From Marinomonas sp. TW1 (GTDB lineage Bacteria; Pseudomonadota; Gammaproteobacteria; Pseudomonadales; Marinomonadaceae): DNA of 64,000 bases. The stretch spans positions 1 to 64,000 of the forward strand of contig NZ_JSEE01000002.1 in NCBI RefSeq assembly GCF_001625355.1. Reading direction: 5' to 3'. The notes under the pieces were generated by a model. The model ran no database searches, was not told where the DNA came from, and worked only from the letters and a program-made list of their open reading frames with translations. Numbering within the stretch: the stretch's first letter is position 1; every line of letters begins with the position of its first letter. Made by a program: the position numbers and the translations under genes. Below are positions 5,393 to 21,236 of the stretch, piece after piece.

Positions 5393-5581
5393 TTAATCCT
5401 CAGAATCTTGTCCATCTTGCTCTTTTTGAATTCGAAGATATATTTCTTCACGGTGAACAGAAACATCTTTTGGTGCATTGATACCAATACGCACCTGATT
5501 CCCTTTTACACCCAACACAGTAACGGACACTTCGTCACCAACCATCAAGGTCTCACCAACACGACGAGTCAAAATAAGCAT
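5393..5581 (-). CDS. csrA: Carbon storage regulator CsrA/RsmA
   Basis: 62 residues. Homodimeric RNA-binding protein that blocks or alters translation and stability of mRNAs carrying AGGA/GGA hairpin loops. It is titrated by CsrB/RsmZ-type RNAs. The first 49 residues are nearly those of E. coli CsrA, including the RNA-contacting Leu4 region and Arg44 in SVHREEIY. The start has a GGGAG ribosome site about 8 nt away. Unusually, a three-half-site operator identical in design to one upstream of a candidate CsrA-sequestering RNA (19581-19820) lies 53-80 nt upstream. Confidence 0.98.
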
Positions 5582-5633: not shown

Positions 5634-5661
5634 CCTACAACATTGTAGGCTATTTCCTACA
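5634..5661 (-). promoter_or_regulatory. GacA/UvrY-like operator upstream of csrA
   Basis: On the minus strand: TGTAGG-N6-CCTACA-N4-TGTAGG, that is an 18-bp palindrome with 6-nt spacer (5644-5661) plus a third half-site (5634-5639). The published Pseudomonas GacA box is TGTAAG-N6-CTTACA; this differs at one symmetric base pair. The same element with the same spacings occurs at 19959-19986. Binding by a GacA/UvrY/VarA-type regulator is inferred. Confidence 0.7.
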
Positions 5662-19134: not shown

Positions 19135-19458
19135 ATGGCTTTCATCGTTACTGATAACTGCATTCGCTGTAAATACACCGACTGTGTGGAAGTCTGCCCA
19201 GTAGATTGCTTCTATGAAGGGCCAAATTTTCTGGCCATTAATCCAGACGAATGCATTGATTGTGCGCTTTGTGAACCAGAATGCCCTGCCAATGCTATTT
19301 TCTCAGAAGATGAATTACCAGAAGAGCAAGAAGTGTTTGTTGAACTGAACAAAGACCTTGCCATGATTTGGCCAAACATCACAGAGAAAAAAGATGCGTT
19401 AAGCGACGCAGCGGAATGGGATGGCGTAGAAGATAAACTAGAACACCTTGAGCGCTAG
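19135..19458 (+). CDS. fdxA: 7Fe ferredoxin (3Fe-4S/4Fe-4S), FdxA/FdI type
   Basis: 107 residues. The N-terminus [29 protein letters not shown] carries cluster cysteines, and a second [12 protein letters not shown] set completes a [3Fe-4S] and a [4Fe-4S] centre, as in Azotobacter ferredoxin I. A small electron carrier, often expressed with redox stress. The start at 19135 has GAGGAG 7 nt upstream; an in-frame TTG at 19120 would add five residues and is less likely. The mutS-fdxA order matches Pseudomonas. Confidence 0.95.
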
Positions 19459-19474
19459 AAATACAATTTAGAAC

Positions 19475-19502
19475 GAAAAAAAGCGACCACGGTCGCTTTT
19501 TT
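19475..19502. terminator. Bidirectional terminator between fdxA and the Csr-type RNA
   Basis: AAAAAAGCGACC-AC-GGTCGCTTTTTT, near-perfect stem with T-runs on both strands. It ends fdxA on the plus strand. On the minus strand it would terminate any transcript that reads through the 19581 hairpin of the candidate small RNA. Confidence 0.88.
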
Positions 19503-19580
19503 AATATCCTATTATTGACACCCTGTCTGGCCTAATCCTTGCTGGCCATATGTAACATCCTGTTTGACATCCTTCTCGTA

Positions 19581-19607
19581 AAAAAGACAGCCTAAGCTGC
19601 CCTTTTT
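19581..19607 (-). terminator. U-tract hairpin at the 3' end of the Csr-type RNA
   Basis: Minus strand: AGGGCAGC-TTAG-GCTGTCTT followed by a T-run (plus-strand A-run 19580-19585). The stem includes G-U pairs, so termination may be incomplete. CsrA-type motifs continue beyond it to the next terminator at 19475-19502. Confidence 0.65.
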
Positions 19608-19820
19608 ATGCTTAATTCCGTTTAAGCCACTCTTCCGATGAGTAAAACATCACTGTCTGTTTCATCATGAAACCCAAACAATCCTTAACACATGGTGCGA
19701 TCCTGAACCACAATATCCATTAGAACCATCCTTTGTTCTGAACATCCTAGTTCTGTCCTAAACGCCATCAGTGGCATTTTGCTCCTCAATGTGCTGATCA
19801 TCCTTGAACTCTGTTTGGAT
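19581..19820 (-). ncRNA. Candidate CsrB/RsmZ-type CsrA-sequestering small RNA
   Basis: On the minus strand this 240-nt stretch has ten GGA motifs (plus-strand TCC at 19801, 19783, 19756, 19745, 19729, 19716, 19701, 19682, 19634, 19617). Several are AAGGATG, TAGGATG or CAGGAT, close to the CsrA consensus ACARGGAUGU. Some sit in hairpin loops: GAAC[TAGGAT]GTTC (19740-19753), AGAAC[AAAGGATG]GTTCT (19722-19739), TGGT[..CAGGAT..]ACCA (19693-19710). It ends at a U6 hairpin. Four more motifs follow downstream (19570, 19558, 19536, 19506), so a longer RNA ending near 19475 is possible. No ORF. Pseudomonas rsmZ is also next to fdxA. The 5' end is uncertain. Confidence 0.82.
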
Positions 19821-19826
19821 AAGACT

Positions 19827-19854
19827 AATTTACCACTTATTTGACTAATTACAA
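19827..19854 (-). promoter_or_regulatory. Candidate promoter of the Csr-type RNA
   Basis: Minus-strand TTGTAA (19849-19854), 16-nt spacer, TAAATT (19827-19832); a start near 19820 puts the upstream operator at about -157, similar to rsmX/Y/Z. An alternative is a -10 TATACT at 19942-19947, 11 nt past the operator, which would give a longer 5' end. Sequence alone cannot decide. Confidence 0.4.
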
Positions 19855-19958
19855 TTTTTTACATTTCGAGAAAATCAATATTTTATAATTTAAATTCAAT
19901 AACTTAGACTATTTCCGGCAAGAAACATTACATTACAATACAGTATAAAGAGAAAAGA

Positions 19959-19986
19959 CCTACAGACTTGTAGGACTCCCCCTACA
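19959..19986 (-). promoter_or_regulatory. GacA/UvrY-like operator upstream of the Csr-type RNA
   Basis: Minus strand TGTAGG-N6-CCTACA-N4-TGTAGG: palindrome 19969-19986 plus a third half-site 19959-19964. Half-site sequence, spacings and orientation are identical to the csrA-upstream element at 5634-5661, while the spacer bases differ. It resembles the Pseudomonas upstream activating sequence TGTAAG-N6-CTTACA of rsm RNAs. It lies 30 nt past the stop of the EAL-HDOD gene. Confidence 0.75.
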
Positions 19987-20015
19987 TAAATAAGGAATAA
20001 AAAGAAAAAGGGAGG

Positions 20016-21236
20016 TTAAATTTGAGTTAGAAATTCATCAGACCATTTCAAAGCCGCTAAATAAGTTCCTTTCAGGTCACTAAGATCCTGATCACTGTCA
20101 ATGCTACGCTGGTTAGAATATCGATCTACCAAATCCAAGGTTTCTCCAACACGTCCAGCGCGATGGACAATGGCATTGATAAACTCATTAGGTAACGGCA
20201 GTTCCCCTAAAACCTCTTCTAAAGGCATGCCTGTGCACACATCCATCATGGATAACATGCCAGCTAAAAAGTATTTATCTTGATTGTCATAAGAACGGTA
20301 TATCGCCATTAACTCAGCGTGCTTGGCTCGAATAATAATCTGCTCAAGCAAAGCGTGTTGTTCGCCAACCATTTCTGACATCAAAAGCAGATTAGTCAGT
20401 GCCTTTAGTTTTTCCACACCAATTAACATAACCGCCAAACGAACAGAGTCAACTGACACCATTAATCCAGTCATGGGGGAATTCAAATAGCGTAGCAACT
20501 TATGAACTAACCCTGCGTCTTGACTAACAATTTGCTCAATATCATCCACATTTAGATTACTGGTATCTAAGAGCGACGACATTAACCTTAATAAGGTCAT
20601 GCTGTTCACACGAGATGATTTAGTCGTCATCAATTCAGGTTTTTCGAAGAAGTAACCTTGAAAGTACTCGACGCCTAACAAGCGGCAGAATTGATAATCT
20701 TCCCAAGTCTCCACCTTTTCCGCAATCAACTTAACATCAAAGCCTCTTAGTGCATCAACTTGCTGGTGAAAACCATCATGCCCCAAAGATAAAATATCCA
20801 GTTTGACGTAATCCACCAGTTCAACAAAAGGCGTTAACTTAGTTTCAAACACAAAGTCATCCAGTGCCAGTAAGCAACCAGCGCTTTTCCAACGTCTTAA
20901 CGCGGCCAATAAATTAGCATCGAAGCCAGCGGTTTCAAGTACTTCAACCACAAGGTTTTCACGACTGGTCGGTATGCCATTTGCGCTTAATAAGTAGGAG
21001 CGAGGGAAATTCACAAACGCTTTGTTGCTGCCGACTAAGTTTTCCATACCCAATTCAAATAAACTGGCCGAAATCACTTGAGCAGTCGCCCCCACCTCAT
21101 CCACCACATCCGCATGATGGGCAAGTGCACTCTTACGATACAATAGCTCGTAGCCCATGACGGCCAAATGCTCGTCTACAATCGGCTGTCGTGCTACAGC
21201 AACGTCAGAATAAACATAGGTTTCCTGCTCTGCCAT
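20016..21236 (-). CDS. EAL-HDOD signalling protein (degenerate EAL, YuxH/CdgJ type)
   Basis: 406 residues. N-terminal EAL-like domain (about 10-205) in which the catalytic E-x-L-x-R region reads ELLYR (30-34). Later metal-binding positions are also not standard (LALDDFVF, KLDIL, AEKVET). It is therefore probably not an active c-di-GMP phosphodiesterase. The C-terminal HDOD domain (about 205-400) has LLRYLNSP. Vibrio CdgJ-type proteins of this layout affect motility and biofilm. The gene ends 30 nt before the Csr-type RNA operator on the same strand; no terminator is visible between them. Confidence 0.85.
   Translation of the reverse strand: MAEQETYVYSDVAVARQPIVDEHLAVMGYELLYRKSALAHHADVVDEVGATAQVISASLFELGMENLVGSNKAFVNFPRSYLLSANGIPTSRENLVVEVLETAGFDANLLAALRRWKSAGCLLALDDFVFETKLTPFVELVDYVKLDILSLGHDGFHQQVDALRGFDVKLIAEKVETWEDYQFCRLLGVEYFQGYFFEKPELMTTKSSRVNSMTLLRLMSSLLDTSNLNVDDIEQIVSQDAGLVHKLLRYLNSPMTGLMVSVDSVRLAVMLIGVEKLKALTNLLLMSEMVGEQHALLEQIIIRAKHAELMAIYRSYDNQDKYFLAGMLSMMDVCTGMPLEEVLGELPLPNEFINAIVHRAGRVGETLDLVDRYSNQRSIDSDQDLSDLKGTYLAALKWSDEFLTQI

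Follow-up and report, generated by a model that had tools for sequence, protein, structure and literature searches.

Of the described RNAs that resemble the one treated here, CsrB and CsrC of the Enterobacterales (RF00018/RF00084) are of the same size class and likewise carry many GGA hairpins; they have a UvrY box far upstream, but lie at another genomic place. Pseudomonas RsmZ (PrrB, RF00166) is similarly convergent with fdxA and GGA-dense, and its GacA box is at a comparable distance (163 nt in one order member, L190, versus 162-175 nt in Marinomonas). However, RsmZ measures 119-135 nt in three Rfam matches, against a core of about 240 nt in the present RNA, and its other neighbor, rpoS in Pseudomonas, differs from the EAL-HDOD gene of Marinomonas. 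In Alcanivorax dieselolei, CsrR2 is described (PMC9788540) as a CsrA-related sRNA with six unpaired GGA beside a ferredoxin gene, antisense to fdx and flanked by hpt. The likeness to the fdxA-rsmZ arrangement was pointed out there, so that the fdx link had been noted earlier for Alcanivorax and Pseudomonas. CsrR2 shares the adjoining ferredoxin gene with our RNA, but not the antisense placement or the hpt flank, and its description mentions no GacA dependence. For Marinomonas mediterranea, PMC8523701 reports two predicted CsrA-regulating sRNAs, CsrB between MARME_RS03610 and RS03615 and CsrC upstream of RS17890, both expressed above the surrounding genes in RNA-seq, CsrB strongly so, and lower in ppoS and ppoR mutants. 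A literature search that left subscription papers mostly outside returned no report of a link between the Marinomonas RNA and fdxA.

Here we propose that the gap between fdxA and the EAL-HDOD gene in the window (the whole 64-kb stretch of DNA analysed) almost certainly encodes the CsrB of this Marinomonas lineage, a CsrA-sequestering sRNA whose transcription and CsrA binding are deduced from sequence. The type of RNA is already known and an ortholog has been published, so its kind is not new; our comparison suggests as a new detail a clade-specific second GGA module behind a weakened terminator. The features of the locus are the following.

19969-19986, minus strand: GacA/UvrY box TGTAGG-N6-CCTACA, an exact match to TGTARGN6CYTACA
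19964-19959, minus strand: further TGTAGG half site near the GacA box
19906-19894, minus strand: IHF-like site TAAGTTATTGAAT, 1 mismatch, near the usual position
19885-19873, minus strand: IHF-like site TAAAATATTGATT, 0 mismatches; both IHF-like sites (19873-19906) sit between GacA box and promoter
19854-19827, minus strand: promoter-like sequence with a -35-like TTGTAA (19854-19849), a 16-nt spacer and an extended -10 TGG-TAAATT (-10 at 19832-19827)
about 19820-19580, minus strand: core CsrB-type RNA, about 240 nt, 10 GGA, 5' end placed from the -10
19602-19580, minus strand: first intrinsic terminator GGGCAGC-TTAG-GCTGTC-T6, closing the core, -8.1 kcal/mol without the U tract
19579-19503, minus strand: second GGA module, 4 GGA, confined to the window clade among the 36 gaps compared
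19502-19476, both strands: fdxA terminator, with U tracts on both strands, which would end a long form
19135-19458, plus strand: fdxA ferredoxin gene, convergent with the RNA (Pfam DUF3470 and Fer4)
20016-21236, minus strand: EAL-HDOD protein gene, upstream of the RNA (Pfam HDOD and EAL)
5393-5581, minus strand: csrA, encoding the expected target protein (PF02599)
5644-5661, minus strand: GacA box upstream of csrA, exact match

The putative 5' end at about 19820 follows from the position of the extended -10 (TGGTAAATT, 3' end at 19827 on the minus strand). Comparable promoter elements stand at the same columns in most of 36 aligned genomes, and a terminator adjoining fdxA recurs in most of them; a generic sigma-70 promoter scan gave no listing for 19854-19827. 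An initial annotation of this DNA had drawn a single RNA gene at 19475-19830. The RNA is indeed predicted there, but the GacA box and the greater part of the promoter region, reaching to 19986, fall outside that extent, and the main RNA probably ends near 19580 rather than at 19475, with 19579-19503 being a clade-specific extension. The annotated total of about 14 GGA on one strand was accurate, the minus strand of 19475-19830 holding exactly 14 and the plus strand 1, but the statement that most of them read AAGGATG, TAGGATG or CAGGATG was too strong: 5 of 14 do, and 9 of 14 lie in AGGAT. It was also right in finding no ORF (none of at least 60 aa in 19459-20015) and in seeing U-tract hairpins, of which that at 19602-19580 ends the core genus-wide and that at 19502-19476 also ends fdxA. 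Judged by sequence, the unit is non-coding, with its own promoter and a Rho-independent terminator. On the minus strand of 19475-19830, AGGA occurs 11 times where 3.0 are expected, a count attained by a single one of 5000 dinucleotide shuffles, and AGGAT 9 times where 0.8 are expected (0 of 5000), while GGA alone is a weaker signal, 14 being reached in 64 of 5000 shuffles. The AGGA maximum of the window on either strand falls at the locus (11, the next being 6, in 300- and 356-nt windows), and the minus-strand fold of 19475-19830 has a minimum free energy z of -5.4.

fdxA was found in all 48 genomes of the genus, and an EAL-HDOD relative borders the other side of the gap in 46 of them, on a second contig in G015, G024 and G043; the two misses are G008 (contig end) and G034 (another neighbor). 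BLASTN of the window DNA matched 34 of the 48 genomes, several matches being short and some lying on contigs without fdxA, and the comparison was therefore moved to the fdxA gap itself. Single-copy gaps from 36 of the 48 genomes were aligned; those left out were contig-cut (G008, G015, G024, G043), long (G004, G011, G014, G021, G022, G036, G044) or from G034. The core of about 240 nt and the promoter region are conserved in this alignment. Alignment A1, the model R1 and the covariation count use 29 of the 36 rows, and the dropping beforehand of the seven rows most diverged by eye (G003, G009, G016, G020, G023, G042, G046) favors a clean structure. R1, built from the 29 cores, matches all 48 genomes at E <= 0.001, 29 by construction and 19 from outside the model. 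In G009 the R1 matches lie elsewhere and the fdxA gap is unmatched at E 0.001; an nhmmer profile including G009 and G020 recovers the fdxA-gap copies of both, by construction. A family-level search gave the same 48 genomes with no additions. The order-level R1 search, which hit 92 of 244 genomes including 10 from the genus, was set aside as evidence: outside the genus the best match reached 38.7 bits, and most were short and were taken, short of one-by-one inspection, for terminator-like, with a few lying at fdxA (G092, G158, G071, G163). As a side observation, an ORF resembling part of a transposase by eye lies beyond the RNA terminator in G024 (contig C5, after 59467; L211).

That the GGA loops are kept by covariation within Marinomonas, as the initial annotation anticipated, was borne out. 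Changes on both sides occur at 19 of 49 pairs, a number that none of 500 shuffles reaches (6.9 pairs), cells with such changes number 38 against 10.1, and RNAalifold alone gives 34 pairs, 14 with double changes. Over 11 local helices in the 29-row alignment, 91.6% of cells pair, against 37.6-45.7% with the partners slid, a percentage that leans towards the structure because the helices were placed by eye, guided by what RNAalifold gave for this very alignment. Three of the previously proposed GGA hairpins (19740-19753, 19722-19739 and 19693-19710) correspond to alignment helices 4, 5 and 6, with both-sided changes in some genomes, and the fourth, 19528-19548, falls within the clade-specific tail, where four sequences are too few for covariation. 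Each of the 36 cores carries 8-17 GGA, and in all 36 the G of GGA is predicted to be unpaired more often than other G (0.63 versus 0.27). The difference in openness, 0.37, compares with 0.05 in shuffled cores, and 27 of the 36 exceed all 30 of their own shuffles. In the window core the GGA at 19718, 19747 and 19785 are predicted to be mostly paired, which counts against exposure; by prediction and covariation, many of the 14 GGA appear to be displayed in loops or bulges.

A GacA/UvrY box stands upstream of the RNA not only in the window. Of the 36 genomes, 32 have it, with up to 2 mismatches, at a distance of 162-175 nt before the reference point 19822, whereas 1.7% of plain letter shuffles contain one; G002 was scored as a miss since the ORF call shortened its gap, and a box is seen at L236. 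An IHF-like site with at most 1 mismatch occurs in 30 of the 36 at a median of 85 nt upstream (range 63-192), which is weak evidence alone, since 29% of plain letter shuffles reach the same. The expected partners are encoded in the same genome: csrA, 14 kb from the RNA, and a UvrY/GacA ortholog followed by uvrC (261.8 bits, below the NCBIfam cut-off of 280; next best 139.5). The exact GacA box before csrA (5644-5661) makes it probable that the two-component system acts on csrA directly, and such a box also precedes csrA1 of M. mediterranea (PMC8523701). Four further exact GacA boxes occur in the genome (G000:C3:101910, C12:270279, C59:141482 and C60:43901), that at C12:270279 about 80 nt before a gene resembling a PAS sensor by eye; no GGA-rich RNA was found within 450 nt of the four (at most 7 GGA). 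In a search for a second CsrB-like RNA in this genome, R1 gave a single match, and the surroundings of further GacA boxes, 5 exact ones and 8 with one mismatch, held at most 5 AGGA or 8 GGA per 250 nt, below the core; a more diverged second sRNA may exist outside the stretches scanned. The genome has five CsrA matches in all. At L314 388-699 (G000:C9:42787-43098) a CsrA-like protein of about 100 aa is made of two fused CsrA parts, one truncated to about 36 residues and the other without its first residues, and G005 has the same pair of matches in one 104-aa frame. Decay of E. coli CsrB requires the EAL-GGDEF protein CsrD, and csrB of Enterobacterales has IHF input (PMC7652899); by analogy with CsrD, a partner role is conceivable for the EAL-HDOD gene that adjoins the RNA in 46 of the 48 genomes.

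The published CsrB of M. mediterranea can be placed at the same locus. The main text of PMC8523701 mentions fdxA 0 times; the match was made by gene order. The genome G020 (M. mediterranea MMB-1) carries the csrA1-upstream string quoted in that paper. From mutS, next to fdxA, to csrA1 it has 35 mechanical ORFs, 33 after two small ones (73 and 62 aa) are dropped as spurious, the slot of fdxA itself being filled in this count by an antisense ORF. As 3615 + 33 x 5 = 3780, which is the number of csrA1 in PMC8523701, fdxA would be RS03615 and the EAL-HDOD gene RS03610. The fdxA gap of G020 is moreover the GGA maximum of the 55 kb examined (14 in 250 nt, the next 11). Gene count, csrA1 string and GGA maximum agree in placing the RNA of the window in the same interval, between the same two genes, as the M. 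mediterranea CsrB, of which it is, as matched by gene order, the ortholog. Another gap of G020 (G020:C1:764190-764587, in L119) contains repeats of TTGTATCTGAG and is not CsrB-like; it was rejected as a candidate, since it ties on AGGA (6 each) but has 6 GGA only and no core match, and no GacA box within 3 mismatches was found in it. The two CsrB share the locus by gene order, the GacA box, GGA in a predicted structure and the terminator. They are far diverged in sequence, G020 giving no BLASTN match and its fdxA gap an R1 match of only E 7.5e-7, and the second GGA module of the window clade is absent from that gap. G020 also has a dispersed copy, presumably the published CsrC, that is nearer to the window RNA (E 2.3e-40). 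This presumed CsrC (L209, G020:C1:3922437-3922691) is closer to the CsrB of the window than is M. mediterranea's own CsrB, which hints that paralogs were swapped or lost. Behind the dispersed copy of both G020 and G009 there seems to be part of a second one, with weak matches (E 0.004 and 0.0008), and the intervening hairpin lacks a U tract.

The Rfam CsrB, CsrC, PrrB_RsmZ and RsmY models, which the initial annotation had named as a check, gave no match at threshold at the locus, and in the window only tRNAs pass the gathering threshold. For CsrB (RF00018, threshold 71 bits) the genome of the window gave no match here at E values up to 1; CsrC (RF00084, threshold 61 bits) scored 15.5 bits at 19465-19736, and PrrB_RsmZ (RF00166, threshold 44 bits) 15.5 bits at 19578-19712 (E 0.5). 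Four genus loci scanned with Rfam gave no match either. Relaxed matches to STnc130 and MicX were set aside as resting mainly on the terminator hairpin, and an RF00018 match at G000:C8 (13.1 bits) was dropped as it resembles a coding end plus terminator. When 16 order loci were scanned with the four genus loci, two PrrB_RsmZ matches appeared (L190, L191), both opposite fdxA just after it, and 20 named loci gave one more, in P. protegens (L263). The rsmZ-like position beside fdxA claimed at the outset fits these matches opposite fdxA in three loci; L190 has its GacA box 163 nt upstream of the RsmZ 5' end. With GGA-dense defined as at least 7 GGA in 150 nt, reached in at most 2.5-5% of shuffles, same-orientation GGA-dense stretches occur in 5 of 40 order members (L171, L185, L190, L191, L199). 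Among 42 named loci selected out of 80, there are 10 with such stretches: 3 Marinomonas, 5 Pseudomonas, Halomonas lysinitropha and Modicisalibacter tunisiensis, the last two with exact GacA boxes. No GGA-dense flag was given in the named set to the two Stutzerimonas and seven other Halomonadaceae.

The locus also varies in copy number. Multiple units are present at fdxA in 9 of the 48 genomes: two in G004, G011, G014, G015, G022, G036, G043 and G044, with placement in G015 and G043 inferred across contig ends, and three in G021, where the third was recognized by eye. Tandem arrays occupy the fdxA gap in G021 (L097), G036 (L105), G014 (L104) and G004 (L107); in the units inspected, each has by eye its own terminator and box-like site. 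Duplication seems, from the copy tree, to have happened several times independently.

The segment from the first to the fdxA terminator holds 4, 8, 7 and 11 GGA in G000 (the genome of the window), G005, G028 and G040, all on the RNA strand, against 0-1 in the 32 other genomes of the 36 aligned; its length differs among the four species (75-136 nt). These four form one branch on the copy tree (support 98/98), and the second module therefore counts as one gain. Their first-terminator hairpins, at -7.0 to -8.3 kcal/mol, are four of the five weakest of the 35 measured (range -7.0 to -14.1 kcal/mol, U-tract pairs excluded; G016 could not be measured). A second GGA module behind a weakened terminator suggests that short and long forms exist, by read-through. 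We therefore entertain, tentatively and at somewhat less than even confidence, that CsrB of the window clade is a sponge built of two modules, with a weakened internal terminator as the gate between them and a CsrA-binding capacity tunable by termination. If so, the short form would carry 9-12 GGA and the read-through form 14-23, and read-through could itself depend on CsrA bound to the core hairpin that immediately precedes the terminator. A similar path may have been followed to its end by the presumed M. mediterranea CsrC, with its apparent partial second copy and its internal hairpin devoid of a U tract. It seems to us equally possible that only the 240-nt core works as the RNA, and that 19579-19503 is either a relic without transcription or yields a short RNA of its own: the first terminator retains six U and a stem that its A and U tracts can extend, and the tail's own fold is modest, with some GGA half paired. 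The strand bias of the GGA (none on the other strand), their near absence from the 32 other genomes and the weakness of the clade's terminator hairpins speak against this reading, as do the best sub-threshold matches of the Rfam CsrB model at the locus, which cover the second module in G005 (19.7 bits) and G040 (17.2 bits, against 71); no such match exists in the window itself. The high-affinity CsrA motif ACAGGATGT is found a single time in the window, within module 2, which is not above chance.

Taken as a CsrB, the locus would work as follows. Minus-strand transcription of a non-coding RNA would begin near 19820 and stop at the terminator at 19602-19580. The phosphorylated UvrY/GacA ortholog would activate it from the box at 19969-19986, with IHF possibly bending the DNA between box and promoter. 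Its GGA loops and bulges would bind CsrA dimers, so releasing CsrA-repressed mRNAs. In the window clade, the weakened first terminator would probably let part of the transcripts reach the fdxA terminator, adding the second GGA module. Gac dependence of expression has been published for the positional ortholog in M. mediterranea (PMC8523701) and may by analogy apply here. The role of CsrA antagonist put forward in the initial annotation is supported by covarying, predictedly open GGA, the GacA box, the presence of csrA and uvrY/gacA, the rsmZ position and the gene order of the M. mediterranea CsrB. Could the RNA instead be a base-pairing sRNA or an antisense regulator of fdxA, and no protein sponge? 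It is convergent with fdxA, and for CsrR2 of Alcanivorax, described as antisense to fdx, a dual role has been proposed (PMC9788540). However, the predicted RNA stops before the fdxA coding region and so has no antisense overlap with the coding sequence, and what is conserved is the GGA predicted to be exposed, as expected for CsrA binding; we consider this reading very improbable. Least credible of all is that the region is no more than the 3' UTR or terminator of one of its neighbors, fdxA or the EAL-HDOD gene, and owes its GGA to base composition. The fdxA terminator does lie at 19502-19476, and the EAL-HDOD gene reads into the gap on the strand of the RNA. Yet AGGA and AGGAT are more frequent than in dinucleotide shuffles, conservation of the core and the promoter columns extends across the genus, covariation is seen, and the tandem units inspected have, by eye, a terminator and a box-like site each.

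For Marinomonas, the CsrB reading provides a CsrB that can be aligned genus-wide and has a steady promoter layout, together with a covariance model where no Rfam model fires. A CsrB/CsrC cascade has been proposed to control CRISPR-Cas in one Marinomonas species. The finding of a CsrB-sized RNA at the fdxA position of rsmZ means that the two may be one inherited locus, and the variable copy number, together with the extra GGA module, hints at ways in which a cell may set the amount of a protein sponge.
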